Positions 44,913 to 59,298 of a stretch of 64,000 nucleotides of DNA are shown here, piece after piece. Origin of the DNA: Nocardia mangyaensis (GTDB lineage: Bacteria > Actinomycetota > Actinomycetes > Mycobacteriales > Mycobacteriaceae); the NCBI RefSeq assembly GCF_001886715.1, contig NZ_CP018082.1, forward strand, positions 6,820,001 to 6,884,000. The letters are read 5' to 3'. Each line of letters starts with the position of its first letter. Position 1 is the first letter of the stretch. A program made the translations under genes and the position numbers. The notes beneath the pieces are model-generated. The model saw nothing but the letters and a program-made list of their open reading frames with translations, had not been told where the DNA came from and made no database searches.

Positions 44913-45311
44913 TCAGCGGACCGGGTCGTAGACCGCGAATCCGAGATGGCCGGCGACAGTGGCCATCGTCTTGTCGTGGGTGACCACCGTGAGGTCTTCC
45001 AGCCCGCTGCGCAGGGCCGAGGCCAGGTGGATGGCATCGAGGGTCTTGACGTGCGAGGTGATCGCTTCGGCTTCGTTGAGTACGGCGTGATCGACGGGGA
45101 CGACATCGATGTAGTCGATGATCTGGCTACGGTCGAGGACCGGTAGCCCCTCCCTGCGCAGCACTCGTGTGATCTCGGTACGCAGCAACCGCGAGGACAA
45201 GATCCGACTCTCGCGGTCGGCGGTGGTTTCGTCGAACCACCGGGCAGCATCGACGGAGTGCCCCAGCATGATTCGGATGGCGACCGAGGTGTCGAGGTAG
45301 TAGGCCCTCAC
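44913..45311 (-). CDS. vapC: PIN-domain toxin (VapC type)
   Basis: A 132-residue ribonuclease toxin. The PIN acidic residues are visible in YYLDTSVAI (first Asp), LLRTEITRVL (Glu), KTLDAIHLASAL (Asp) and VTHDKTMA (last Asp). The GTG at 45311 overlaps the antitoxin stop by four bases (GTGA); a GTG at 45314 is in frame too. It forms a toxin-antitoxin operon with the next entry and is not part of the conserved fgd-pta-ackA block. Confidence 0.9.
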   Translation of the reverse strand: MRAYYLDTSVAIRIMLGHSVDAARWFDETTADRESRILSSRLLRTEITRVLRREGLPVLDRSQIIDYIDVVPVDHAVLNEAEAITSHVKTLDAIHLASALRSGLEDLTVVTHDKTMATVAGHLGFAVYDPVR

Positions 45312-45559
45312 CACTCGCCCTTCTCGGACTCGAGCAGCTCGTCGATGGACTCGGCCGTCCGGAGTTCATGCCGAGCGATGGCAGTCGTGCGCGCTCCACC
45401 CTCGACCGCTCGCTGGATGATCTGCGTCGACGTGACCGCCGGCACGATGTAGCCCACCCGATGATTGTGCCGGGTGAGCTCGTAGACCTCACCCGACTCG
45501 ACGTCAGCAACCATGGCAGAGGGGTTCTGGCGCAGCTCACCAACACTGATCGACTTCAT
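45308..45559 (-). CDS. Phd/YefM-type antitoxin
   Basis: An 83-residue antitoxin. The Phd/YefM DNA-binding fold is clear: MKSISVGELRQNPSAMVADV, then GEVYELTRHNHRVGYIVPA; the C-terminal 30 residues bind the toxin. I chose the ATG at 45559 because homology starts there; the longer frame to 45577 adds only six residues. It should bind its own promoter, perhaps at the direct repeat at 45579-45597. Confidence 0.88.
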   Translation of the reverse strand: MKSISVGELRQNPSAMVADVESGEVYELTRHNHRVGYIVPAVTSTQIIQRAVEGGARTTAIARHELRTAESIDELLESEKGEW

Positions 45560-45578
45560 ACAGCCAGCATACGCCATG

Positions 45579-47635: not shown

Positions 47636-47962
47636 TCAGTATCCGGCGCGCGGTTCGAAGCCGGGATCGGGCAACGCTGGCGGTGCGGCCGACTGCACCG
47701 GGGCCTGCTGCTGCGGCACACTCCGCGGTGGCGGATCCGGTACACCCGCGGGAGCCATGGCATCACTGCCCGGCAGTACGACTTCCGGCGTGGCCGTGAC
47801 GGTCGAGGGAGCCTGCTCCGGGGTCGCCGTCGCGCTGACCGCTGGACTCGTGGTGCCTGCGGGTGATCCCGCGGGTGCCTGATCAGGACTCCCACCGCAG
47901 CCGGCCAGCACCAGGACGGCCGCACCGAGCGTGACCGCGGACCAGCGATTTCGATATCTCAT
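47636..47962 (-). CDS. Small proline-rich lipoprotein
   Basis: A 108-residue secreted protein. The signal peptide is RYRNRWSAVTLGAAVLVLAG with lipobox LAGC (Cys near residue 22), followed by a low-complexity Pro/Ala/Thr/Gln region with no recognised domain. ATG 47962 is the natural signal-peptide start. It probably sits on the outer face of the membrane. Function unknown; no operon partner. Confidence 0.7.
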   Translation of the reverse strand: MRYRNRWSAVTLGAAVLVLAGCGGSPDQAPAGSPAGTTSPAVSATATPEQAPSTVTATPEVVLPGSDAMAPAGVPDPPPRSVPQQQAPVQSAAPPALPDPGFEPRAGY

Positions 47963-48101
47963 GACGGACACGGCGTCAGCGTAGTCGCGTGTCCGAGCGG
48001 CCGCCGTCATGCGTTCGACCGACACCACCACCACTGTCGCAGCGCAATACTGAACTGTCTTGCAACTGAACTGTCCTGTGCCATAAAGCGATTGGGTAAC
48101 C

Positions 48102-49010
48102 ATGAGATTCCGCCGCGCATGTTCCTCGGCTACCGCAGCGTGGACCGCGATGATGCTGGCCGCCGTGCCGATGGCGGCGACAGCGGCGGCCGCACCCCCG
48201 GTTGGCGCGACGGTAGTCGTCCTAGGGGATTCGTTCACCGCGACCGCACCTGTCCTCGGGCACGCCGACGACGGGTGCACCCGTTCGCCGTCCTCATGGC
48301 CGAATCAGCTCGCGCACGACACCGGTCTGGCCGGGTCCCCGCAGTTCGTAGACGTGTCCTGCAATGGCGGCACGATCGATACCGGGAACGGCTGGACTCT
48401 GGTTCACCAAGCACGTAAGGCGTCCGCGCAGGGGGCTTTCGGTTCGGACACCCGCGTTGTGCTGATTCAGGTGGGGCTGAACGACGTGTGGGGGGCCTCC
48501 ACCGGGACGGCATTCCCATCCACGGACTGCCTGCTCAACATTGTCGCCGGATGCGGCTTCGATGCCACCGAGCAACATCGCCTGCCCGACTATCGCGCCG
48601 TCAGCGGGGCGCGGTACGCAGACCGGGTGCGCAATGTCATCACCTTTGTCCGGCACTACGCAGCGGACGCGCGAGTAGCTCTCGTCGGCTACCCAGAGGT
48701 GTTCCCGTCCGGCCAGCCGACCGCCTGCATGGACCTGGCCGGTATCGGCCGGATCGTACAGCCACGCGCGGAAGGTTACATCGCCTATCTCGACCGGATC
48801 CAAGTAGCGCAGCGGGACGCGGCCCATCTGCTCGGGATCGAGTTCGTCGATGTCCGGGCGATCACAGCGGGACACGGAAGTTGCACGAACCAGCCATGGG
48901 TCAGCGGACTCGACGGAGCGACCTCGTTGTTCGACGGTGCTCCCATCCATCCGAACACCCAGGGCAACGGCGCCGTCGCAACGCAGGTACGCGAACGGTT
49001 CGGGTTCTGA
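48102..49010 (+). CDS. Secreted SGNH/GDSL hydrolase
   Basis: A 302-residue esterase-like enzyme with a cleavable signal peptide (ATAAWTAMMLAAVPMAATAA). SGNH blocks are VVVLGDSFTA (Ser), the Gly in DVSCNGGT, GLNDVW (Asn) and the final Asp-x-x-His (DGAPIHPNTQGN). Several cysteines (CTRSPSSW, CNGG, CLLN, CGF, CMDL, CTNQPW) probably form disulfides outside the cell. The acyltransferase gene starts 5 bp after its stop, so the two are likely an acyl-transfer pair. Confidence 0.88.
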   Translation: MRFRRACSSATAAWTAMMLAAVPMAATAAAAPPVGATVVVLGDSFTATAPVLGHADDGCTRSPSSWPNQLAHDTGLAGSPQFVDVSCNGGTIDTGNGWTLVHQARKASAQGAFGSDTRVVLIQVGLNDVWGASTGTAFPSTDCLLNIVAGCGFDATEQHRLPDYRAVSGARYADRVRNVITFVRHYAADARVALVGYPEVFPSGQPTACMDLAGIGRIVQPRAEGYIAYLDRIQVAQRDAAHLLGIEFVDVRAITAGHGSCTNQPWVSGLDGATSLFDGAPIHPNTQGNGAVATQVRERFGF

Positions 49011-49015
49011 ACGCG

Positions 49016-50248
49016 GTGCCTACCACGAAGCTGCCCGCGCTCACCGGTGCACGATGGTGGGCGGCCGTCACGGTTTTCGTCCTGCATGCGCTGGTGTTTC
49101 TGCCGATCTATCCGTTCCAGAAATCCGAACTGTTCCGCGTCATCCATGATCTCGTGCCGATGCAGCAGGGCGCGGCGGGCGTGACCTTCTTCTTCGTTCT
49201 GTCCGGTTTCGTGATCTGCTGGTCGTTCCGGCGTGGGATGTCCGTGCGAGGCTACTACCTGCGTCGATTGCTCAAGATCTATCCCACCCATCTGATCGCC
49301 GCCCTCGTGCTGATTCTCGTGGTAGCCGTCCCGTTGACCCGGCCGGTGGTGTGGTTGCCGAATCTGGCGCTTTTGCACACCTGGGTGCCGAATTGGACCA
49401 CGCTGGGTGGGCTCAACGTGCCGTCTTGGTCGTTGTGCGCGGAATTGCTTTTCTACCTGAGCTTTCCGCTAGCGCTGCCGCTCCTCGCCCGGATCCCTCG
49501 CCATCGACTGTGGTGGGCAATGGCCGGTCTGGTCATCGCCATCCTGTTGCTGCACACCGGATTCCACCTGTGGACCGAAGGCCCCAAGGACACTGCCAAC
49601 GTTTTCGCCGTCCGGCTGTTGCCAGGGGAGGTTTCGCCCGAATTCGAAATACACGTCTCGCCACAGTGGTTCGCGCAGTCCGACATCCCCATCCCGACGT
49701 CGTACTGGCTCAGCTACCTGTTCCCGCTGTCCCGGCTCCCCGAGTTCTACGTCGGCGTGCTCGCGGCTCGAATGGTTGCCGAACGGGTATGGCGCGATAC
49801 GCGGCTGGTCACACCACTGGCAGCGCTGGCGCTCTGCTATGCCGCGACATGGTTCGTGCCGGTCAACTACAAGATGTCGGCTCTGCTGGTCGCCCCGATG
49901 GCCGCCGTGGTGGCGACCCTGGCCACCCGTGATCTCGCGGGGATCAACGGCATCAACAACACCCGGCCGATGATCTGGCTCGGCGACATCTCCTTCGCGT
50001 TCTACATGATCCAGTACCCGGTGATGGTGATCGTCACCCGGCTGTTCATCGGCGGCCGACAGTACTCGATCGGCGGCTGGGCGCTGTGGACCTCTGTCAG
50101 CCTCGCCGCCTCGATCCTCGCCGCGGCCGCCATCTACCACGGCATAGACAAACCGATCATGCGCCGCTTCGCGCATCGCTCACCACGGGTCCGGCAGACC
50201 GCGCCGCCGCTAGCTCATTCCGCGATCAAAGCGCGAACCAAGCCGTAG
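49016..50248 (+). CDS. Membrane acyltransferase (acyltransferase family 3, OafA-like)
   Basis: A 410-residue protein with about ten membrane helices. Family marks are GAAGVTFFFVLSGFVICWSF, RGYYLRRLLKIYPTH and WSLCAELLFYLSFPLAL (catalytic-type Glu). In OafA proteins the AT3 domain is often fused to a C-terminal SGNH domain; here the SGNH partner is a separate gene just upstream. It would acylate a cell-surface sugar or lipid. The GTG at 49016 is chosen. The 3' end overlaps the convergent serine hydrolase gene by 34 bp. Confidence 0.88.
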   Translation: MPTTKLPALTGARWWAAVTVFVLHALVFLPIYPFQKSELFRVIHDLVPMQQGAAGVTFFFVLSGFVICWSFRRGMSVRGYYLRRLLKIYPTHLIAALVLILVVAVPLTRPVVWLPNLALLHTWVPNWTTLGGLNVPSWSLCAELLFYLSFPLALPLLARIPRHRLWWAMAGLVIAILLLHTGFHLWTEGPKDTANVFAVRLLPGEVSPEFEIHVSPQWFAQSDIPIPTSYWLSYLFPLSRLPEFYVGVLAARMVAERVWRDTRLVTPLAALALCYAATWFVPVNYKMSALLVAPMAAVVATLATRDLAGINGINNTRPMIWLGDISFAFYMIQYPVMVIVTRLFIGGRQYSIGGWALWTSVSLAASILAAAAIYHGIDKPIMRRFAHRSPRVRQTAPPLAHSAIKARTKP

Positions 50249-51462
50249 GCGATCTCGTTCGCCGGGCGTCCGCCCGCGGGCCCATCACGTAACGTGCAGA
50301 GCACCACGATCGTGATGCCGGTGTCGGGGTCGTACCCCATAAAGGTCTGGAAGCCGGGTATGGCACCGTCGTGGCCGAGCATCGGGCCGAACGACTCGAG
50401 ACCGAGTCCGTAGCGGATACCGGCGGGGTCACGCCGGTCCAGCGGGGCCGCGCTGGTGAGCCGTTCCCGCTGTAGCTCAGGACCTATCAGCTCGTCACTA
50501 CCGACCAGTGCGCGGACGTAGGTCGCGAGGTCTTGCGCGGTCGAGATCACGCCGCCCGCCGCACCGATCCAGGATGGGTCGAGGTTCGTCACATCGGTAG
50601 GCGCCAGGTCGCCTGTGCGAGCTGCTGCGACTTGGGCGGAAGGCAGAACCACCGAGCTGAGCGCCGAGGTGTTGGTCCCGTAGAGGTAGCCGCGCGGCGA
50701 CGGCGAGGGAAGCGTGGCCTCGCCCGGTTCAGGATAGGACGTCTTGGTCAAGTCGAGCGGGCGGAAGATCCGATGTGTCAGCAGCGATCCGATGTCCTGC
50801 CCGGTGACCTGTTCGAGCACGGCAGCCAGCAGAATGGTATTCGTGTTCGAATACCGGAACTCCGTGCCCGGTGCGGAGTATGGCTCCGAGGCGAATCCGA
50901 TTCGCAGGAGAGCCTCCGGTTTCCATACGCGGCCGGGATCGTCGTCCATGATCGCGGCGAACGACGGATTCTCGTTGTAGCTGAACAGGCCACTGCGCAT
51001 GTTCAGCAGGTCGGCGATTGTGATGTCGTCGCCGTTCGGAACGCCCGCACGATAGCGCGACACCGATTCGTCGAGTGCCAGCCTGCCCTCTCCGACCAAT
51101 TGCAGCGCGACCGTGCCCACCATGGTCTTGGTGGTCGAGCCGACGCGAAAGAAGTCCTCCACCAGCACCGGATCGTTTTGCCCGAGTATGCGACTACCGA
51201 ATGCCCGCTGCCAGTACGCATCCGGCGTCCGCACGTAAACCACCGCCCCGGGGACGAGTAGCGCGTCGAGGATCTCGCGCACTATCGGTTCCGCGAGTCG
51301 ACCGAGTGCCACGGATAGCTCCGCGGGGGTCCGGTCGATCGCGGTCGGATCGACGGAGGGTCGCTCGGATACGGTGCCGCCACCGGAGACGAGAGCCGAG
51401 CACAAGATGGCGACAGCGCCCAACCGCGTCCATCGTCGGGGCATGTCGCGAAAGAAGGTCAT
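50215..51462 (-). CDS. Secreted serine hydrolase (class C beta-lactamase / DD-peptidase fold)
   Basis: A 415-residue protein with an N-terminal signal segment (TRLGAVAILCSALVSGGGTV). The hydrolase domain has the SxxK serine motif STTK (in VGSTTKTMVG), the Tyr motif YSN (EFRYSNTNTI) and the late HDG triad (LGHDGAIPGF), so all three catalytic motifs are present. It acts on peptidoglycan or on small esters outside the cell. The ATG at 51462 overlaps the kinase stop by four bases, so it is the last gene of the TIR/triad operon. It is intact, unlike the related gene at 6046. Confidence 0.88.
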   Translation of the reverse strand: MTFFRDMPRRWTRLGAVAILCSALVSGGGTVSERPSVDPTAIDRTPAELSVALGRLAEPIVREILDALLVPGAVVYVRTPDAYWQRAFGSRILGQNDPVLVEDFFRVGSTTKTMVGTVALQLVGEGRLALDESVSRYRAGVPNGDDITIADLLNMRSGLFSYNENPSFAAIMDDDPGRVWKPEALLRIGFASEPYSAPGTEFRYSNTNTILLAAVLEQVTGQDIGSLLTHRIFRPLDLTKTSYPEPGEATLPSPSPRGYLYGTNTSALSSVVLPSAQVAAARTGDLAPTDVTNLDPSWIGAAGGVISTAQDLATYVRALVGSDELIGPELQRERLTSAAPLDRRDPAGIRYGLGLESFGPMLGHDGAIPGFQTFMGYDPDTGITIVVLCTLRDGPAGGRPANEIAYGLVRALIAE

Positions 51463-53486
51463 GTTCCCCGGTTCCCGATGACGGACAAGGTCCCGCCGTT
51501 GAAGTTCGATACGTAGATCTCGCCCGCGACCGGACCCACCGCGACTCCATGCGGACGGGCACCGACACGAACGGTCCCGGTGACCACACGGGTGCCGACA
51601 TCGATAAGAGATACGGAATTGGCCGACCGCGCGTCGTCGAGTCCGTGATTGGTGACGTACACCGTCCGGCTCGCACGGTCCACCGCAATACCGACGGGGC
51701 CGATGCCGACGCCCAGGGTCGCGGTGACGGCGCGCGCCCGTGTGTCGATCACCGACACCGTCCCGTCCGCATGGTTGGTCACGTAGGCGGTGTCGGTGTC
51801 TGTGTCGACCACCACACCCCACGGCTGATTGCCGACCCTGATCGTGGTCACCACCGAAAGTGTGCCGGTGTCCACTACCGCAACCCGGCGATCGGGCGCC
51901 TCGGGCGGTCCCGCGATCGCCACGAAGGCGCTGCCGGTGCCCGGGTCGAGGGCAATGCCGTAGGGATGGCTACCGACCGGAACTGTCGCAAATACGTCCC
52001 TGGCGCGCAGGTTCACAACAGACATCGTGCCCGCGTCGAAGTTCGTCACATAGGCAGTGCGCCCGGCCTGGTCGACGGCGATCCCGTAAGGTCCAGCACC
52101 GACTGCGATCCGGTCGACGACGGCCCGGCCACGCGTCTCGATGACTGAGACCGATCCGTTCCCCGCGTTGGTGACATAAGCCAGACCTGCTGTCGAATCC
52201 ACGGCTATCGCAGTGGGTTTCGCGAAGTCCGGCGAGGTGATCGACATGGTTGCACCGGTCTCGATGTCATACACCGACACCGAGTTGGACAGACTGTTGG
52301 TAGCGAACACACTCCCGGTCGCCGCGTCGACGGCCACTCCCCACGGCTGCGCGCCGACCGGGATCGTCATACTCACCGTGTTCGGAGCGATTCGGGAGGC
52401 CGTCCCGCGAACCGGGGGCGACTCGCCGTCCCCGGATGTCGTGCTCATCAGCAGTCCCGCGACGACGACCACAGCAGCGACAGCACCGATCACTTTGAAG
52501 CGCAGCGGGATTCGCTGCCACCAGGGGCGTTGACCCTGAACCGGTGGCTGCACCCAGGCCGGCGTCGGTGCGGCCGAGCCGGTGGCACGACGCGCTGGTG
52601 CCACCCGTGCGTGGGTACCCGCGCCTGCCGCGGCGTCGTCGAGCACCTGGATCCAGTCCGCCGGTTCGGGTCGTTGTCCGGCCGGAGCGGACACGGCGGA
52701 CCGGACGAGCTGCCGGACCGTGCCTGGCACACCCGCTGGTAGCTTGCTCGGGTCCCGAGTGGCCTGATCGCCGGCCAGGAGGCGCAGTGCCAGGAGACCG
52801 AACTTGTAGGCGTCGGACTGCGAGGTTGCCAATTCCTCACCGGGATAGCCTGTCACAACTTCCCAATCAGGTGTTTCGACCTGGTCGGTGACGGATCGGG
52901 AGCGCAACCGCATGGCGTCGCAGTCGATGAAGTACACCTGCCGCCGTGGTCGCAGCGAGAACAGGAGATTCTTCGGTGACATGTCGCCGACCGCGATGTC
53001 GTGGCGATGCAGCATGGCCAGCGCCGCCGCGGCATCGGAGAGCAGCTCGTAACGGTACCGATCCGACAGTGGGATCCCGCGCTTGGCCAGGAAGACGTCG
53101 TCGTTGAGGAGGTGCTGAAACTCCGCGGTCTTGCGCTGTACCGACGAGGTCATCATCATGTCGATGAAGAATTCGCCCGGAATGGACGGCATCACGAAAC
53201 CGACCACGGTGGTCGAGTGATCTTCCTCGACCAACCTGCACGGCCAAGCCGCCCGATTCAGCAGTTCCATGCCATCGACACCCGGCAGCGACTCCAAGTA
53301 GGAGGGCATGTCCTCGAGCACATCGACCCGGACGCTGGGCAGCACCGGGGATTTGTACTCCTTGAATACCATTGCCCGCGCGTGCGGCATCTGTGCACGC
53401 GGGGCGAGATAGACCACGCCTTGGCCACCCGACGCCAACTTCGTCGTCACTCCCAGGCGACCCCGTTTCAACCGCTGCTGTGCCAC
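51459..53486 (-). CDS. Membrane protein kinase with C-terminal YVTN beta-propeller
   Basis: A 675-residue protein. Residues 1-310: a divergent kinase domain with glycine loop ASGGQGVVY, Lys42 in VFKEYK, catalytic loop VGDMSPKNLLF (Asp168, Asn173), and DCD in place of DFG (residues 188-190). Then a Pro/Ala linker, one helix (VIGAVAAVVVVAGLLM, about 330-350), and an outside part of about 310 residues built of seven or so repeats of the AYVTNxxxGTVSVID type, ending each time in PxGIAVD. The GTG at 53486, with GGAG 7 bp before it, fixes the start, 10 bp after the phosphatase stop. It probably senses something outside and phosphorylates partners inside. Middle gene of the operon. Confidence 0.9.
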   Translation of the reverse strand: MAQQRLKRGRLGVTTKLASGGQGVVYLAPRAQMPHARAMVFKEYKSPVLPSVRVDVLEDMPSYLESLPGVDGMELLNRAAWPCRLVEEDHSTTVVGFVMPSIPGEFFIDMMMTSSVQRKTAEFQHLLNDDVFLAKRGIPLSDRYRYELLSDAAAALAMLHRHDIAVGDMSPKNLLFSLRPRRQVYFIDCDAMRLRSRSVTDQVETPDWEVVTGYPGEELATSQSDAYKFGLLALRLLAGDQATRDPSKLPAGVPGTVRQLVRSAVSAPAGQRPEPADWIQVLDDAAAGAGTHARVAPARRATGSAAPTPAWVQPPVQGQRPWWQRIPLRFKVIGAVAAVVVVAGLLMSTTSGDGESPPVRGTASRIAPNTVSMTIPVGAQPWGVAVDAATGSVFATNSLSNSVSVYDIETGATMSITSPDFAKPTAIAVDSTAGLAYVTNAGNGSVSVIETRGRAVVDRIAVGAGPYGIAVDQAGRTAYVTNFDAGTMSVVNLRARDVFATVPVGSHPYGIALDPGTGSAFVAIAGPPEAPDRRVAVVDTGTLSVVTTIRVGNQPWGVVVDTDTDTAYVTNHADGTVSVIDTRARAVTATLGVGIGPVGIAVDRASRTVYVTNHGLDDARSANSVSLIDVGTRVVTGTVRVGARPHGVAVGPVAGEIYVSNFNGGTLSVIGNRGT

Positions 53487-53496
53487 CGCGGCTCCG

Positions 53497-54489
53497 TCAG
53501 CTTCTCCGCGGCCAGATGGCCACCAAGGTGCGATCGTCGTCGAACGTCTCCCGGGAGAAGTCCAAGGCGTGCGCGAATTCGAGCTGCGAGGGCACCCGAT
53601 CACCCATCAGCGCCGCGAACAACGCCCCTACGCCGCCCTCGCCGCCGCCGAGCGGATCTCCGAATCCGTCGGTACCGACCAGCAACACCTGTCCGGGCTC
53701 GACGATGACTGGAACCGGTGTCACGGTATTGGGCACCCGGGGCAGGCCGACCACGGCCGACGAGGACAGGCCCGAGGCCGACGCCTGCTTGCCGCCGAGC
53801 ACCGGGACGAACTTCCCGTCGGCCAGCAGCCAAGCACCGGAATCACCGACTCCGGCGACGACGGCGGACAGACCGCCTTCAGGAATCGGCGTGCACACCA
53901 CGCAGGTCAACGTCGTGGCCAGCATCTGCTCCGCCTGCTCGGCATCGGCTTGGGGTAGAGACAGCACGGTGGCGGCTTGCTGGGTCAACGTCCACGCAGC
54001 ACTCTTGAACAGAGTGTCCCAACCGCCGTCATCGAGCGGCTCCGGGGGCTCGTCGAGCCACTGGGTGGCATAGCGGACCACCGTGGAGGACCCGATGTGG
54101 GAGTACCTGGCCGACGACACCCCGTCGGCCACAGCGACTGTCAGCCGATTGCGCTCCGCGTCGACGGCGATGGCGAAGTCGTCCTGGCGCGGCGCTCCGC
54201 CGTAGCGGTGCAGGTATCCGCGCACCGAGGCCGCCCGGACCGTGAACGCGCCGCTGGACCAACCGTCGACCACGGTGTCGGCTCGGTAAGGCACCTTGCC
54301 GAACTCCCGGTCCACAGCTTTGGGTTCGAACACCGGTGTCGGCGTGCCGACCACGATCGGCTCACCGGGCTGCCGACCGGTAGCCGTCGACTCGAGTTCG
54401 GCCGAGTCGTCACCCAACACGGAAGCCGGCGATGACGCGTTCTCGACATCGTGTTCGGCGTTCTTGTCCCGCCGGGTCGTCCAACGCAT
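53497..54489 (-). CDS. PP2C-family serine/threonine phosphatase
   Basis: A 330-residue phosphatase. After a polar N terminus of ~75 residues come the metal-binding motifs: RQDDFAIAV (Asp103/104), VAVADGVSS (Asp122-Gly123), VGDSGAWL, GTDGFGDPLG and the last Asp in FDDDRTLVAI. It should remove phosphates put on by the neighbouring kinase. The ATG at 54489 shares bases with the VWA stop (TGATG). VWA, PP2C and kinase genes in a row match the TerY-type triad known from bacteria. Confidence 0.92.
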   Translation of the reverse strand: MRWTTRRDKNAEHDVENASSPASVLGDDSAELESTATGRQPGEPIVVGTPTPVFEPKAVDREFGKVPYRADTVVDGWSSGAFTVRAASVRGYLHRYGGAPRQDDFAIAVDAERNRLTVAVADGVSSARYSHIGSSTVVRYATQWLDEPPEPLDDGGWDTLFKSAAWTLTQQAATVLSLPQADAEQAEQMLATTLTCVVCTPIPEGGLSAVVAGVGDSGAWLLADGKFVPVLGGKQASASGLSSSAVVGLPRVPNTVTPVPVIVEPGQVLLVGTDGFGDPLGGGEGGVGALFAALMGDRVPSQLEFAHALDFSRETFDDDRTLVAIWPRRS

Positions 54490-55160
54490 CAGACGGTGTC
54501 CACATCGAGGCAGAGGAAATCAGCGGGCTTCTCCACCTGCAACGACGCCTGCCCGGTCGCCAGCGCGGTGCCCGAGTTGATCACCGACTGAGTGAGCGCG
54601 GTCACGAACTTCGAGATCGCGCTGCCGGTATCGGTTCCCGCCGCCGTGATGAACGCGTATTGCGTGTTGGTCGCGACCCGGCGAATCACGTCGGCATCGG
54701 CCTGTCCGATGCCGAAGGCCAAGATGTTCGGGCGCGCCGCGAAACTCATCAATTGCGTGTGTGCCGACTCCCAGCCGTCGCCGGGATTGGGCGCACCGTC
54801 GGTCAGGAAGAAGACCGCGGGGCGATTCACCAGATACCCCTCGGACTTCAACGCCTTGATGTCGCTCGGAATTCGCTTGCTGAGTTCCGCGAACGCCGCC
54901 GCGAACGACGTCGAACCGCGGGCGCGCAGTTGCGGCACATCATCGACTCGCCGCAGATCGCTCGGCTCCAGATAGCAGATTGCGTCGTCGGAGAATCCGA
55001 TGACACAGAACCGGACCTTCGCGGCGGCCATCGATTCACCCTGAAGGGTGTCGAACAAGGTGACCAGCCCCGTGTTGAGGTCTGCCACGTCGTTCACCAT
55101 CGAATACGATTCGTCCGCAACGAAATAGACCGGCAGTACGGTTGCCTTCGGTTCGTTCAT
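54489..55160 (-). CDS. VWA-domain protein (TerY-like)
   Basis: A 223-residue von Willebrand A domain protein with a complete metal site: DESYS (Asp16-x-Ser18-x-Ser20), the Thr/Ser region RGSTSFAAAF, and FFLTDGAPNPGD. It is almost only the VWA fold, as in TerY. Such proteins bind partners through a metal ion and probably organise the kinase and phosphatase. ATG 55160 begins the homologous region; the longer frame to 55220 is arginine-rich. The short C-terminal tail (SLQVEKPADFLCLDVDTV) is not typical of VWA. Confidence 0.92.
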   Translation of the reverse strand: MNEPKATVLPVYFVADESYSMVNDVADLNTGLVTLFDTLQGESMAAAKVRFCVIGFSDDAICYLEPSDLRRVDDVPQLRARGSTSFAAAFAELSKRIPSDIKALKSEGYLVNRPAVFFLTDGAPNPGDGWESAHTQLMSFAARPNILAFGIGQADADVIRRVATNTQYAFITAAGTDTGSAISKFVTALTQSVINSGTALATGQASLQVEKPADFLCLDVDTV

Positions 55161-55261
55161 CCAGCTCACACTCCATCGTTCCCATTTCGCCCGAGCACAT
55201 CGAACGCTACAGTCCAACAACGGCTTTCACTGTCATTCAATCGACTGACAGCGGACGAGAA

Positions 55262-55546
55262 CTACAGGTCATCGATGCCGATGAGAGCGTCTTGCAGAGC
55301 GCGGACGACAAGCGCGGCCTTGGTCGGCGCGGGTCTCCCGACCGCCGCGTACTTGTCTCTGATCCGGGCCAGATGCGTATTGACCGTACCCGGCGAGATA
55401 TACAGACGCTGGCCGACTTCCACCTTCGAATCCGAGGCCAGCCAAGCCAGCAGTACCTCGATCTCGCGACTGCTCAGCGCCGGCCGCCCAGGTACCACAC
55501 TCGGGGTGGTTCGCAGCTCGTCCTCGTGATCGAACGTGATGCTCAT
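55262..55546 (-). CDS. Receiverless LuxR-type HTH regulator
   Basis: A 94-residue protein made of little more than a LuxR/NarL DNA-binding domain: ALSSREIEVLLAWLASDSKV, then LYISPGTVNTHLARIRDKY as the recognition part. There is no receiver domain, so it is not a normal response regulator; it may be phosphorylated by the kinase or act as a simple switch. AAGGAATC before the ATG at 55546 is the ribosome site. The frame upstream to 55897 covers the membrane protein gene and has no homology. Confidence 0.85.
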   Translation of the reverse strand: MSITFDHEDELRTTPSVVPGRPALSSREIEVLLAWLASDSKVEVGQRLYISPGTVNTHLARIRDKYAAVGRPAPTKAALVVRALQDALIGIDDL

Positions 55547-55578
55547 GCACAGATTCCTTCGGGAAGAAAAACTCACGT

Positions 55579-55923
55579 CTATTTCCACCGTCCGAGCAGG
55601 TCTCGGATACATCTTCGCGCCAGGATGAAGGTGGCCGCGAGCAGTAGCAGACTGGTCGCCGAACGAAACTGGTCGCCGCCGTCGCCGGGCACCGAGGTGT
55701 AAACAGCCTGGGCGTACCAGAAGAATACGATGTCGACCAGGATCAAGGCTGCCAGTACGTACCACAAGCGCACCCGACGAACCGCCTGCTGCTGGACGAT
55801 GTTGACGGTCTGGTATCCGTTCTGATTGGAAACAACCGTGCCACCGCGCTTCGCGATGTTCAGTTGATTCTGCCCCAAGACATTTCTGTTCGACCAAGGG
55901 AAGAGGCGCACGTCAGCTCCCAT
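55579..55923 (-). CDS. Small two-helix membrane protein with NQNG motif
   Basis: A 114-residue protein. The N-terminal ~45 residues are polar and include RGGTVVSNQNGYQTVNIVQQ, which matches the tail of the TIR protein encoded just upstream. Two helices follow: LWYVLAALILVDIVFFWYA and ATSLLLLAATFILARR, joined by the short loop VYTSVPGDGGDQFRS. It ends in a basic cytoplasmic tail. Its start overlaps the TIR stop by 11 bp. No named family is recognised. A likely role is a membrane anchor for the TIR protein, through the shared motif; this is inference. Confidence 0.8.
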   Translation of the reverse strand: MGADVRLFPWSNRNVLGQNQLNIAKRGGTVVSNQNGYQTVNIVQQQAVRRVRLWYVLAALILVDIVFFWYAQAVYTSVPGDGGDQFRSATSLLLLAATFILARRCIRDLLGRWK

Positions 55924-56497
55924 GTGGATTGTTCAACGTGACATTCTGGGTTCCGTTCTGGTTCGCGACCACGATTCCGCGGCCGGTCGGAGAATTGTGC
56001 TGCGTCGCCGTCGGCTGCGGGGCCGGCGACGAACCCGGCGTCGCAGCGCCGGGCGCGAGCCGCCGGATGAGCCCATCGATGTCGTTTTCGAGCGTTTGGT
56101 GCCGGATGCACCAGCCCTGCGACAGCGCCAGGCCTCGGATGTCATCCGGAAGGCTGTCCGGAACTGGTAGCAGCGTGTCGTCCAGGAGCACCGGGACGAC
56201 CGGAATGCCGCGGTCGAACGCGATACGCAGTTCCATGCGCACCCAGTCACGCTCGTTGTCGATGCACCGTACCCCTCGTTTGTCACGGGCATCGAGCCAA
56301 TGTCGGCCGATCACCGACACCACAACGTCGCTCTCGTCGAGCGCGGCGCGGATGCGGCGGGCGTACAGCGCACCCAGCGCCAGCGAGTCCTGATCACGAA
56401 AGACATGCACCCGCCCGAAATGGCGGGCCATCTGTTTCGAGATCTGACCTACGGCATATACGCTGTCAATGGTCCGATAGTTCAGGAATATTTTCAT
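55913..56497 (-). CDS. TIR-domain protein with NQNG tail
   Basis: A 194-residue protein. Residues 1-135 form a TIR domain: IFLNYRTIDSVYAVGQI (strand A and box 1), HVFRDQDSLALGALYARR, DVVVSVIGRHWL and a late WVRMEL segment in which Glu89 is at the place of the catalytic Glu of NAD-cleaving TIRs. A Pro/Ala/Thr linker follows and then a tail with GRGIVVANQNGTQNVTLNNP. It is the first gene of a seven-gene operon; an 18-bp palindrome lies 27 bp upstream of the ATG. TIR proteins of this size often act as NAD-degrading or signal-making enzymes in bacterial immunity, but the activity here is not shown. Confidence 0.88.
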   Translation of the reverse strand: MKIFLNYRTIDSVYAVGQISKQMARHFGRVHVFRDQDSLALGALYARRIRAALDESDVVVSVIGRHWLDARDKRGVRCIDNERDWVRMELRIAFDRGIPVVPVLLDDTLLPVPDSLPDDIRGLALSQGWCIRHQTLENDIDGLIRRLAPGAATPGSSPAPQPTATQHNSPTGRGIVVANQNGTQNVTLNNPHGS

Positions 56498-56523
56498 CTA
56501 ACGGGCAACTCCTCGGGATGGCA

Positions 56524-56541
56524 TATTTCCGTACGGAAATA
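56524..56541. promoter_or_regulatory. 18-bp perfect palindrome upstream of the TIR gene
   Basis: TATTTCCGTACGGAAATA is its own reverse complement. It ends 27 bp before the TIR start codon (56497), where a repressor would cover the promoter or transcription start. An additional half-site AATTCCG (56541-56547) adjoins it. The XRE protein at 56915 or the LuxR protein at 55262 are the candidate binders. Confidence 0.7.
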
Positions 56542-56872
56542 ATTCCGCACACGACCGAGCCTCGATCCGCCGATCGAAACTAAACAGGCGACCAGTTCGA
56601 TACCCTCTCCCGAAGTTGGTCCGCTCCCGGCCCATTCTGCACCCGTTGCCAGAATTTTGCCGACCGAACATGAGTACCGACTTCACCACCATCCATTCAA
56701 TTGCATCCCTACTGGTCCGTATATTGATTCGCATGCCGAACGAAACTATTTGCACTTCTGCGCACTGAATCCGGAGACAGAATCGGCGGATTTCTGGGGT
56801 GTTGCGGATCCAGGGTCGCTTACCGCCGAAGCCCGCTTTCAGCATCCGGCAGTCGGTGGTCGCTCGGAACCA

Positions 56873-56907
56873 GTTGTCCGTTGCCGGGTCGGCCGACAAC
56901 GGACAAC
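56873..56907 (-). terminator. Hairpin after the XRE regulator gene
   Basis: Exact 11-bp arms GTTGTCCGTTG (56873-56883) and CAACGGACAAC (56897-56907), 13-nt loop, 8 bp beyond the XRE stop on the minus strand. There is no clear U-tract. It separates the regulator transcript from the TIR operon. Confidence 0.6.
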
Positions 56908-56914
56908 ACACTGC

Positions 56915-58168
56915 TCAGCGCTTCGTCAATGCCGCCATCAGGGCAGACTGGATGTCATGCGACCCGCGGTGTCCACGGAAACGAGTGATCGTGCGCGCAA
57001 AGTCGCGCAGATCGGTGCGGATAGTCGCCGAATCGACCGAGCACACGACATCGAGCAGCGGCCCGATGAGCTCGCTTGCCCGATCCGGATCGCCCAGCGC
57101 GGCATGGACAAGCGCGCGACGGGTGCCGAATCGCGCATGATCGCGGTTCGACGGCAGCGGCCGCGACATCGCCCGCTCGAAGAGCGCGGCAGCCGCGGCG
57201 AGGTTGCCAAGGTCGTACTGGCACCATGCCTCGATGAGGAGTGGGCGACCATGCAGAGCCGAGGGACCGAGGTGCGCCCCTCCTTCGAGGCGATACGCCT
57301 GTTCATACAGGCCGGCGGCCGTCTCCAGGGCGCGCATCGCACCGGTGTGGTCCAGGCCGATCGCGTACCCCTGCGCGGCGCCGAGTGCGGCCAGCCAGCG
57401 GATACGGGGATGGATGGTGCCGTCGTTCAGTACTTTCTCGGTGGGTCCGGTCGTCGCGGAGGAGTCGCCGCGGTAAAGACTTACCACCGCTCGGCGGACA
57501 AGTGCGTAGCTGGTCATGTCATCGTCGCCCGCAGCCGATGACAGCGCGACCGCATGATCGGTCCACCACAGCGATCCTCGGTCGTCACCGCCCTCCTGCG
57601 CCATCCATCCAGCGAACTCGGCGGTGCGGGCGGCGTGCCGCAGCAAGTGACGCTGATCTCGGCCCGCACTCTGCCCAGCGGCGGAGATCGCGACGTGCGC
57701 CTGGGTGATCGCCATCGGCAGCACCAAGCTGGGGCTGCTAGTGCGGCCGAGTCGTTTCGTCTCCTCGAACAACGCGGCCAGCCCGGGCAGGGTATCCGCG
57801 GACGGCGCGGCGGACCGCGGCAGTTCGGTCACCGTGGGCGTGCCGACTTCGCCGACCTCGAATGCCCCGGAGCCGTCGGACCGCAGGTGGAGATTCCATT
57901 GCAGGTACACGTTCTCGCGAGCAAGGAGGCCGGGACCGGAATCGCGCTCCGGCCGGGAAAACTCCGCAGCCAGCGCGTGCAGCTCACCCCCAGCGGACAG
58001 GACCGCATCGCACTTGCGCGACAGTTGCACGGAGGGAGTCTTGTGCCCGTTCTCGATCTTGCTCAGATGGCTCCGGCTGTAATGCACGAGCGCGGCCAAC
58101 TGGCCGAGGGTCAACCCCTGCCGGAGCCGCCGTCGACGCAGCTCGCCACCGAATTCAGCTCGTGTCAT
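56915..58168 (-). CDS. XRE-family HTH regulator with helical-repeat C terminus
   Basis: A 417-residue protein. Residues 1-65 form a Cro/C1-type HTH (LRQGLTLGQLAALVHYSRSH then LSKIENGHKTPS). The remainder is an alpha-helical, TPR-like region (for example LLRHAARTAEFAGWMAQEGG, AMRALETAAGLYEQAYRLEG, LAAAAALFERAMSR). This is the layout of actinobacterial regulators that sit next to small effector or membrane genes. ATG 58168 follows GGGGAAGATC and starts the domain; the frame upstream is unrelated. It is on the same strand as the TIR operon but has its own hairpin end. Confidence 0.88.
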   Translation of the reverse strand: MTRAEFGGELRRRRLRQGLTLGQLAALVHYSRSHLSKIENGHKTPSVQLSRKCDAVLSAGGELHALAAEFSRPERDSGPGLLARENVYLQWNLHLRSDGSGAFEVGEVGTPTVTELPRSAAPSADTLPGLAALFEETKRLGRTSSPSLVLPMAITQAHVAISAAGQSAGRDQRHLLRHAARTAEFAGWMAQEGGDDRGSLWWTDHAVALSSAAGDDDMTSYALVRRAVVSLYRGDSSATTGPTEKVLNDGTIHPRIRWLAALGAAQGYAIGLDHTGAMRALETAAGLYEQAYRLEGGAHLGPSALHGRPLLIEAWCQYDLGNLAAAAALFERAMSRPLPSNRDHARFGTRRALVHAALGDPDRASELIGPLLDVVCSVDSATIRTDLRDFARTITRFRGHRGSHDIQSALMAALTKR

Positions 58169-58387
58169 GATCTTCCCCAGAACCGCCGTCTCCGGCCGCT
58201 GAACTCCCTGCACGACAACACCATCAGCTCGGACCGCGCCGCCCGGCCATACCGAGAGCGCCGCCGTCAGCAACCCTTCGGTTTCCGCGAGTGTACCGCC
58301 GAATCCTGGCCGCGGCATTGGAGACCCCCACGGATGCGGCGCTGGCGCTCGACTGAATATCCCTGTGCAAGAAAGTGATCGACCAGA

Positions 58388-58819
58388 ATGAATACTGACT
58401 ACCGAATCAAGCATCTCGAGATGCTGCAATCGATCATCGCGCGACTGAGTCAGCAGTCCTTCACCGTGCGCGGGTGGTCGGTGACCCTCGTTTCAGTGAT
58501 CTTCGCACTGCTCAGCGCTCAGTCCCAGCACCGATCGGAGTTGATCCTGCTGGCCCTGGCGCCGACGTGGATCTTCTGGGGCCTCGACGGGTACTACCTG
58601 AACCTGGAACGCCGCTACCGGCGCCTGTTCGCCTCGGTGGCGCAACAGCTGCATACACCATCGGACTCCGGGCTACTCCCGTTCGATATGGTCACCGACT
58701 CCACCCACCCGCTGCGCGACCTCGTTCGAGGGGCCACTGCCCCGAGCGTCGCGGCCATCCCCGTAGTTCTCACGGCATTGATACTCGGTTACTGGACGTT
58801 CCTCGTCGTCACGGGTTGA
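58388..58819 (+). CDS. Three-helix membrane protein, divergent from the XRE regulator
   Basis: A 143-residue membrane protein. After a helical N terminus (LEMLQSIIARLSQQSF) come the first helix (RGWSVTLVSVIFALLSAQ), the second (LILLALAPTWIFWGLDGYYL), a polar segment starting NLERRYRRLF, and a third helix near the end (AIPVVLTALILGYWTFLVV). From memory, small membrane proteins with the 'GW-VTL ... W-LDGYYL--ER' pattern occur beside TIR or other defence-type genes; I cannot confirm this here. It faces away from the XRE gene across 219 bp. Its end overlaps the convergent MarR gene by 31 bp. Confidence 0.8.
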   Translation: MNTDYRIKHLEMLQSIIARLSQQSFTVRGWSVTLVSVIFALLSAQSQHRSELILLALAPTWIFWGLDGYYLNLERRYRRLFASVAQQLHTPSDSGLLPFDMVTDSTHPLRDLVRGATAPSVAAIPVVLTALILGYWTFLVVTG

Positions 58820-59298
58820 CCGACAGCCTCCTCGGCTCGCCTGGCCTGCAGCTCGTCCTCGGCGATGAGGGCTTCCAGGGCTGCGGACAAGCGGGTCAGC
58901 GTTGCTACGGTGGCGGCGAATTCGGTGGGGCCGAGGGTATCGGCGAGGCGACGGGCCATGGCGGCGTGCTGGGGGTTGATGCGGCGGATGGCGGCGTCGC
59001 CGTCCGCGGTCATCGCGACCAGTTTGGCCCGTTTGTGCGCGGGGTTGGGGCGGTATTCGCACAGGCCCTTGTCGACCAGGAGATCGGCGATCCGCTGAAC
59101 GCTCTGCCGGGTGATACCCATCGCGCGGGCGATCCCGGCGACCGGTTGCGGTTGCTCCTGGATGGCGGCTATCACCTGCCACCAGGCGACCGAGATGCCG
59201 ACGGGCGAGGACAGGCCGTCACCGATGGTGAGAAACTGGCCGTTGAGCCGGAAGACGGTGAGGGCGGCGGCGTCGAGCAGGTCCTGTTCTTCGTTCAA
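58789..59298 (-). CDS. MarR-family regulator
   Basis: A 169-residue winged-helix protein. The DNA-binding part is IARAMGITRQSVQRIADLLV with the wing YRPNPAHKRAKLVAMTADG. The TTG at 59298 overlaps the DJ-1-like gene stop by four bases (TTGA), which gives the usual N terminus (NEEQDLLDAAALTVFRLNGQ). It is co-transcribed with that gene and probably binds the two TGACA-N6-TGTCA boxes in front of the operon, repressing it until an inducer arrives. Confidence 0.88.
   Translation of the reverse strand: MNEEQDLLDAAALTVFRLNGQFLTIGDGLSSPVGISVAWWQVIAAIQEQPQPVAGIARAMGITRQSVQRIADLLVDKGLCEYRPNPAHKRAKLVAMTADGDAAIRRINPQHAAMARRLADTLGPTEFAATVATLTRLSAALEALIAEDELQARRAEEAVGQPVTTRNVQ

Follow-up and report, generated by a model that had tools for sequence, protein, structure and literature searches.

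The window analysed here is a stretch of 64,000 nucleotides from Nocardia mangyaensis (G000:C1:6820001-6884000), whose genome is a single contig of 7.3 Mb. On its minus strand it contains a gene for a TIR protein, followed by genes for a small membrane protein (hereafter MEM), a LuxR-type protein, a triad of VWA protein, PP2C phosphatase and propeller-bearing kinase, and a serine hydrolase; an XRE regulator and a three-helix membrane protein (hereafter TM3) lie just upstream. These nine genes, with their short gaps and overlaps, had been listed in a preliminary description of the window, and gene calls and domain matches agreed with that list. We found that the TIR protein and MEM carry the same short motif, a sharing which that description had missed. 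The features of this pair are given below.

55913..56497, minus strand: SARM1-like TIR protein of 194 residues, with a TIR domain (residues 3-126), a linker and a C-terminal motif (residues 165-189); TIR_2 3.9e-9, tir-1/SARM1 8.5e-7
55931..56005, minus strand: C-terminal motif of the TIR protein, amyloid-signalling-like, TQHNSPTGRGIVVANQNGTQNVTLN; E 1.3e-10 with the motif profile in its own genome
55579..55911, minus strand: MEM, 110 residues, N-terminal motif and two hydrophobic stretches; starts 1 bp after the TIR stop
55798..55869, minus strand: second copy of the motif, N-terminal in MEM, NQLNIAKRGGTVVSNQNGYQTVNI; E 3.9e-11 with the motif profile in its own genome

The common motif is located in the tail of the TIR protein (...GRGIVVANQNGTQNVTL...) and in the head of MEM (...RGGTVVSNQNGYQTVNI...). 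It is about 25 residues long, rich in Asn, Gln and Gly, and can be written as Q-x-N-x-A...V-x-x-N-x-x-G-x-Q-x-[VI]; the “NQNG” stretch noted earlier in MEM is the same stretch as that in the TIR C-terminus. Some TIR match was found in 12 of 150 genomes of the genus, and an orthologue bearing the motif tail in 8 of the 150 (seven TIR-like places of 33-42% identity were left out as orthologues). At all eight loci MEM adjoined the TIR gene, and the motif was common to the TIR C-terminus and the MEM N-terminus. Local scores between TIR tail and MEM head were 46-85 at these loci, compared with means of 23-27 for shuffled sequences, and the pair score of the window was reached by 1 of 2000 shuffles; at each of the seven other loci, none of 2000 did so. 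Also, the motif was better kept than the TIR linker (mean identity 0.48 vs 0.24), and motif pairs scored higher within a locus than between loci (means 72.8 vs 59.6), although the window's own pair is an exception to such locus-specific matching. When the 7.3-Mb genome was scanned with the motif profile, TIR and MEM were the only two places below E 0.1, both being among the 13 rows from which the profile was built; a third match, at E 0.455, led nowhere when a stretch there was read in a single frame that may not be the right one. Among 148 genomes of the genus, the profile picked out the eight pairs; G388 and G379 had a carrier of another kind, and two matches were weak (0.07; G309 and G310). 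This other carrier, which contains an MLAVDIE region, is a protein that is cyclase-like by eye only, and its G388 copy had no Pfam match. Motif-bearing proteins of this MLAVDIE type were observed at two Nocardia loci (L085:5892-11771 and L086:7409-13610), beside a membrane protein of about 600 residues, a regulator of CRP-like appearance and an HSP70-like protein; the L085 copy was without a Pfam match, and L086 held three motif-bearing open reading frames (ORFs), one of them weak.

The TIR protein matched PF13676 with 37.5 bits (cut-off 28). For a profile built from the eight TIRs, tir-1 and SARM1 were the nearest solved chains (8.5e-7), and the invariant DWVRxE of the TIRs aligned on the DWVHKE of tir-1. 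Residue E89 was unchanged in all eight TIRs; this glutamate is catalytic in SARM1. Judged by its sequence, the protein looks like an intact SARM1-like TIR and is a predicted NADase. For MEM, the Lys/Arg count in the eight sequences is 5-7 ahead of the first hydrophobic stretch, 1 within the loop and 2-4 at the end, and because of this distribution the motif and both ends of MEM should be cytosolic. Neither TIR nor MEM matched a PADLOC model at E 0.1 or an NCBIfam model above cut-off. Five weak MEM matches were found outside the TIR loci (E 0.001-0.008), and the two that were checked (G144 and G006) showed no system genes. A phage origin of the TIR gene was considered and rejected, with no match at E 1e-4 among 50,697 phage records. 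Separately, a TIR-like stretch of 37% identity was observed in G289 (L034:5268-9599), within an open frame of 1443 residues on a contig other than that of the island.

Among 394 genomes of the class, 5 reached E 0.05 with the motif profile, including that of the window, and the sole strong outsider was G765, which belongs to another family; three weak class-wide matches were in G167, G424 and G749. In G765, the motif stands at the end of a PNP_UDP_1 protein (4e-29) that overlaps an NLR-like protein of 1421 residues; the latter has the motif at residues 21-40 and, after it, a P-loop region (AAA_16 6e-6 and NACHT 7e-4, both under cut-off). A second, divergent protein of 1184 residues carries the motif at residues 25-46 and an nSTAND_NTPase5-like region (1e-6, under cut-off); at a third place (C1:6941228) there was no motif-bearing gene in the gene list. 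Similarly, G782 has a clear PNP protein (1e-28) with the motif, and its motif-bearing neighbour is AAA-like (0.0012, under cut-off). The order of G765 was represented by 293 genomes, 10 of which had matches at E 0.001. All ten were inspected: in seven, both motifs of an adjacent pair were below E 0.01 (E-values that refer to the small local set of ORFs searched), two had a pair with a weak second motif and one was without a pair. In 7 of these 10 genomes a protein of the MLAVDIE/LLACDIA type adjoins a small protein (137-143 residues for those with a clear start), and both end in the motif; the motif of the larger protein was weak in G795 and G823 (0.15 and 1), and the match in G942 was one short reading frame. 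Two sets of loci were noted in this connection. L096:5111-15281 holds an actinomycete PNP effector and two NLR-like proteins, all with the motif, and resembles a signalosome in which one effector is served by two receptors. L113, L114 and L116-L120 each hold an MLAVDIE/LLACDIA-type protein together with a small protein that looks helical, both motif-ended, several with a third motif ORF of about 71 residues nearby; the L113 pair, the only one tested of those seven loci, matched no Pfam family.

The placement of the motif also bears on the role of MEM. MEM might itself be the killer, a pore-like or membrane-damaging protein, with the TIR protein acting as signal producer or adaptor as in TIR-SLATT pairs. 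Its two hydrophobic stretches are consistent with this explanation, and so are the 2-TM (two-transmembrane) SLATT effectors that accompany nucleotide-signal enzymes in GAP1-type systems (available text of PMC7159879) and the bacterial BELL partner, which is likewise a membrane protein (available text of PMC7889193). However, Pfam reported no SLATT or BELL model for MEM, and the MEM motif is N-terminal, which is the receptor position, whereas the effector motifs in the G765 and G782 pairs are C-terminal. We consider it improbable that MEM is the killer.

The pair is part of a conserved island (47636-58834) that is wider than the set of nine genes and reaches further left than had been described. 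The nearest relative found, G322 (L029), has 77-80% DNA similarity over 47636-58834, except for 56615-56839 before the TIR gene; the similarity breaks off at 47636 and 58834, and the L029 sequence continues 1.3 and 6.7 kb beyond. Because the homology spans this whole interval, the conserved unit also holds a GDSL hydrolase, an Acyl_transf_3 protein and a lipoprotein-like ORF. The other genes of the island are listed below; among the matches in both lists and in the island proteins, TIR_2, GerE, PP2C_2, NHL, Beta-lactamase and HTH_31 are above the Pfam curated cut-offs.

55262..55546, minus strand: small LuxR-type DNA-binding protein of a common Nocardia family, 94 residues; GerE 7.5e-9
54489..55160, minus strand: stand-alone VWA protein, 223 residues; VWA_2 1.8e-5, slightly below cut-off (25.7 vs 27 bits)
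53497..54489, minus strand: PP2C phosphatase, 330 residues; PP2C_2 2e-18
51459..53486, minus strand: protein kinase, transmembrane (TM) stretch and YVTN beta-propeller, 675 residues; TIGR02276 8.4e-50, with catalytic residues
50215..51462, minus strand: serine hydrolase of a beta-lactamase/PBP4-like family with a hydrophobic N-terminus, 415 residues; PF00144 (Beta-lactamase) 5e-55
48989..50248, plus strand: membrane acyltransferase (Acyl_transf_3), its 3' end overlapping the 3' end of the hydrolase gene; PF01757 9.6e-34
48102..49010, plus strand: GDSL/SGNH hydrolase with a hydrophobic N-terminus; PF13472 2.4e-15
47636..48280, minus strand: Pro-rich lipoprotein-like ORF, real start probably internal, at the left island edge; L029 homology from 47636
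56915..58168, minus strand: XRE/NsdA-family regulator with a TPR-like region, 417 residues (HTH_31); NF053720 100.6 bits, cut-off 75
58388..58819, plus strand: TM3, membrane protein of PADLOC family PDC-M50A, 143 residues; PDC-M50A 1.3e-30, L029 homology ends at 58834

On the minus strand, the genes from TIR to the hydrolase are separated by 1 bp (TIR/MEM), 32 bp (MEM/LuxR), 101 bp (LuxR/VWA) and 10 bp (PP2C/kinase), with overlaps of 1 bp (VWA/PP2C) and 4 bp (kinase/hydrolase). This spacing fits a single transcription unit, and a promoter could lie within the 101-bp LuxR/VWA gap; the end of the XRE gene is 417 bp ahead of the TIR start. When compared with G322, dN/dS was 0.11-0.22 in eight genes (TIR, MEM, LuxR, VWA, PP2C, kinase, hydrolase and TM3). 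The YVTN repeats of the propeller scored 166.5 bits with TIGR02276 (cut-off 27.85). The kinase was weak in Pfam (0.0042, under cut-off) and matched the MAD6 kinase model at 3.5e-8, far under cut-off; its GGQG, [FY]KEY, GDxSPKN and DCD residues are kept in all seven kinases of an alignment from which the G421 copy was left out. By hydropathy, there is one TM stretch between kinase and propeller, at about residues 326-351, and we infer that the serine hydrolase is exported. The six genes for VWA, PP2C, kinase, hydrolase, acyltransferase and GDSL protein, headed by VWA, occur together in 7 of 7 carriers with a close VWA. The envelope theme proposed earlier around the propeller kinase is strengthened by the two extra envelope-type genes, GDSL hydrolase and acyltransferase. 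The Pro-rich ORF matched no Pfam family; similar C-termini adjoin an SGNH gene in L083 and L162. A pair resembling a PIN-domain protein and a Phd/YefM antitoxin was observed 2 kb off the left edge of the island (window 44913-45577, minus strand).

The gene content of the window locus, TM3-XRE-TIR-MEM-LuxR-VWA-PP2C-kinase-hydrolase-acyltransferase-GDSL, is shared with G322. G346 and G341 have the same content, except for at least three extra genes from LuxR to VWA, one of them for a second VWA protein. In G289, TM3-XRE-TIR-MEM-LuxR is followed by GrpE-Hsp70-large protein-GAP1-N2, and in G382 (with XRE), G277 and G388, TIR-MEM is followed directly by the GrpE-Hsp70-GAP1-N2 set. The preliminary description would have been refuted if no other genome had TIR, MEM and LuxR homologues next to the triad, but such homologues exist: they lie directly before it in L029, as in the window, and in L030 and L031 they share its strand, although at least three additional genes separate LuxR from VWA. 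GAP1-N2 was found in 4 of 30 genomes, which are the four Hsp70-type carriers (G388 has a second copy elsewhere). The window genome has no GAP1-N2, and the window locus was therefore rejected as a complete GAP1-N2 system. A decayed-looking copy of the island, with XRE, TIR, LuxR and GrpE stretches, was observed in G174 (L035:8046-10528), a sister genome of G289; this genome had no motif match.

A close VWA (at least 63% identity) occurred in 8 of 148 genomes of the genus, comprising 7 of the 8 TIR-MEM carriers vs 1 of the 140 others (Fisher 2.4e-10), a count that leaves out matches of 43-44% identity in G405, G415 and G362 and the second match of G421. When all VWA matches at E 1e-30 were counted, the non-carriers rose to 4 of 140 (Fisher 9.6e-9). 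In G289, G277 and G388 the VWA gene was on a contig other than that of TIR-MEM, near the contig end in G289. This co-occurrence at separate loci argues against a triad that merely stands beside a random TIR gene, a possibility we rejected. The sole non-carrier with a close VWA was G421, in which none of the three envelope genes was present within the 19.5 kb examined. In an rpoB tree of 26 genomes, 7 TIR carriers needed 7 changes, 6 of them forced by well-supported branches, and therefore TIR-MEM carriers are scattered on the Nocardia tree; G277 and G388 may represent one acquisition event. This tree included 26 of 30 genomes; no usable gene was available for G346, G237, G362 and G212, and the G341 gene was partial. 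At least 4 of the 30 Nocardia genomes were seen to have two long rpoB genes: G322 (L133/L151), G398, G415 and G258.

TM3 is present in 5 and XRE in 6 of the eight TIR loci. Ten plasmid records contained a TM3 relative, and in 8 of them the immediate neighbour was an annotated TIR gene (the neighbours in H2 and H9 are not so annotated, and H5 and H6 are near-duplicates), which supports the earlier view that the three-helix protein belongs to the TIR set. No PDC-M50 model other than PDC-M50A on TM3 was matched by the nine window proteins. LuxR, which had been counted as a member of the set, did not hold up as a specific one: relatives (E 1e-12) were found in 65 of 148 genomes of the genus, 57 of which are TIR-MEM non-carriers, and five relatives without the TIR orthologue carry LuxR alone at the site. 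Its use as a diagnostic member was rejected on these grounds. LuxR does not track the triad either, as in G382 a LuxR relative lies at a distance of 12 kb from the GAP1-N2 gene while a close VWA is lacking. In G323 (L169:7541-9491), XRE and LuxR relatives were observed to adjoin without TIR-MEM.

Six LuxR-bearing genomes without a TIR orthologue were inspected with regard to the site of insertion. In five of them (G398, G383, G321, G313 and G364), LuxR was located between an ORF of 130-188 residues and an MFS-like gene, and in the sixth, G323, it comes after an XRE relative. G346 and G341 keep both flanks of those five sites (85-90%), with the VWA block 3' of LuxR, TIR-MEM directly before LuxR, and XRE-TM3 before TIR-MEM. 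The stretch 39-310 bp before the G346 TIR start is about 75-77% like the LuxR upstream region in four of the five empty sites; the fifth matched in this region with the G341 copy only (74%). TIR-MEM therefore ended up between this upstream stretch and LuxR. The window island is at a different site, and LuxR is the only part of the window that matches the five empty-site genomes.

These observations may be explained by a self-contained effector, TIR-MEM together with TM3, that rides in several unrelated conflict islands, the VWA-PP2C-kinase and GAP1-N2/Hsp70 blocks being separate systems at the same hot spots that send it no signal. That TIR-MEM precedes GrpE-Hsp70-GAP1-N2 genes in 4 of 8 loci, and that GAP1-N2 occurs in the same four of 30 genomes, is consistent with such an effector. 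Likewise, the site at which five relatives carry LuxR alone has modules on both sides in G346/G341, as a hot spot would. In contrast, the close VWA in 7 of 8 carriers vs 1 of 140 others, also when on other contigs, and the scattering of carriers over the tree speak against this explanation, and we regard independent riding as unlikely. The coupling of TIR and triad that the preliminary description proposed is supported by co-occurrence even on separate contigs; against it, the triad is not adjacent to TIR-MEM in 4 of 8 loci.

We propose a mobile, two-module conflict island of Nocardia in which a membrane-nucleated TIR signalosome is gated by an envelope-sensing phospho-relay, an interpretation to which we give an even chance. 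Module A would consist of the TIR effector with its C-terminal motif and the two-TM protein with the same motif at its cytosolic N-terminus, usually with TM3 and XRE; module B would be a surface-sensing relay (propeller-kinase, PP2C and VWA) with envelope enzymes. In such a system, the extracellular propeller and the envelope enzymes would report envelope injury or entry, and the kinase and phosphatase, with VWA as a docking protein, would govern the state of module A. At the membrane, the accumulated MEM motifs could then nucleate the TIR motifs by templating, and the clustered TIR domains would cleave NAD+, so that the cell dies or goes dormant, plausibly against phages. In favour of this interpretation are the motif common to the two neighbouring genes, its recurrence in NLR-like/effector pairs elsewhere, the adjacency of TIR and MEM at all eight loci, a SARM1-like TIR that keeps its glutamate, the TIR genes beside TM3 relatives and the co-occurrence of the two modules; amyloid assembly, the direction of control, NAD cleavage and a role in defence are what we infer. 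A bolder version, in which a prion-like, membrane-templated bacterial TIR signalosome has replaced the NLR by a two-TM protein and an outward-facing propeller-kinase relay, in place of an intracellular receptor, licenses amyloid assembly and NAD+ loss, is tentative and rather unlikely. The likelihoods that we attach to the different interpretations are not mutually exclusive.

Several observations weigh against the proposed signalosome. With regard to the two modules, 4 of 8 loci join TIR-MEM to Hsp70/GAP1-N2 genes and not to the VWA triad, G382 has TIR-MEM without a close VWA, Fisher's test ignores descent, and the direction of control between the modules is drawn from analogy. LuxR is weak evidence, being common, a poor marker and a link to nothing specific. 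With regard to the pair itself, the window's TIR/MEM pair is the weakest of the eight, and its MEM is not the best match of its TIR among the loci; several MEMs have a low hydropathy value (1.06-1.57) for one of their two hydrophobic stretches; and the profile scan of the own genome found no NLR with the motif at E 0.1. With regard to known amyloid motifs, one published peptide of BASS3, a family of bacterial amyloid signalling sequences (BASS), gave no score with the motif profile, a fungal sigma peptide scored weakly (2 of 200 shuffles were as high), and Pfam reported no RHIM, HET-s, sigma or PP model for TIR or MEM, although HMMER may miss a motif this short. When the motif was compared with solved chains, the best E was 0.67. 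These last results, together with the shortness and the Asn/Gln/Gly-rich composition of the segment, are consistent with a shared motif that forms no amyloid and serves as another kind of short element for homotypic docking, simply anchoring TIR at the membrane, an explanation that overlaps with the others except on the motif. Against it stands the placement in G765 and G782, at the effector C-terminus and the NLR-like N-terminus, which is the layout that defines BASS (available text of PMC7889193); we regard docking as less likely than not.

If the bolder version holds, bacteria would have a counterpart of TRIF-type TIR/RHIM signalling with envelope sensing as its trigger. Bacterial amyloid signalling has been described with NLR receptors, and a receptor-free TIR/MEM pair would mean that the templating motif can be moved about as a connector and put to use by other sensors. 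TIR-MEM also offers a minimal two-gene system for asking whether amyloid templating switches on a bacterial TIR. To our knowledge, the VWA-PP2C-kinase relay of actinobacteria is known only from gene neighbourhoods, and its co-occurrence with TIR-MEM, even at separate loci, offers a testable function for it.

It has been reported that BASS were found through adjacent genes whose products have a motif in common, at the C-terminus of the effector and the N-terminus of the NLR, with TIR named as a less frequent BASS-linked domain (available text of PMC7889193), and that NLR amyloid signalosomes of multicellular bacteria comprise the families BASS1-10 (PMC7889193, PMC8086366 and PMC9815663, as far as their text was available). 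The same arrangement, an adjacent-gene motif pair with one C-terminal and one N-terminal copy, was seen here in 8 of 8 loci. The PNP/NLR-like pairs of G765 and G782 have the layout of the published NLR amyloid signalosomes, and in the window MEM takes the receptor position; unlike in BASS, the N-terminal partner is a 110-residue two-TM protein and not an NLR/STAND NTPase, and TIR-MEM is tied to the VWA-PP2C-kinase block. In GAP1-N2 systems, an HSP70/GrpE set and a kinase-PP2C-VWA set are alternative themes (Kaur et al. 2020, available text of PMC7159879), and the actinobacterial theme consists of a kinase with a TM stretch, PP2C and a stand-alone VWA (same source). The preliminary description had overlooked that the triad, like its alternative, is already on record among the themes of a known class of systems. 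The kinase-PP2C-VWA set (the third theme) is present in the window, and the HSP70/GrpE and GAP1-N2 theme adjoins TIR-MEM in 4 of 8 loci. However, the window genome lacks GAP1-N2 and has a propeller kinase, hydrolases and an acyltransferase, and the word “amyloid” is absent from the main text of PMC7159879, as far as it was available.

Likeness to the PADLOC candidate PDC-M50A is found in TM3 (1.3e-30), whose plasmid relatives are mostly beside TIR genes, whereas the window TIR and MEM match no PADLOC model at E 0.1. TRIF has a TIR domain followed by a C-terminal RHIM amyloid motif; the likeness is one of layout only, as Pfam reports no RHIM match in the window TIR or MEM. SARM1/tir-1, an NAD+ hydrolase, is the closest solved TIR. 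Thoeris and other TIR defence systems have a TIR effector in common with the island, with a weak resemblance to ThcB4 (12.9 bits, cut-off 220), but no ThsA-like neighbour was seen at the window locus. Among the literature matches listed (open literature, by titles and abstract starts, with subscription journals mostly outside), there was no description of a TIR/two-TM pair with a shared amyloid-like motif. The ingredients of the island are known; what is new, and found in no match listed, is the membrane protein in the place of the NLR and the coupling to the kinase block.

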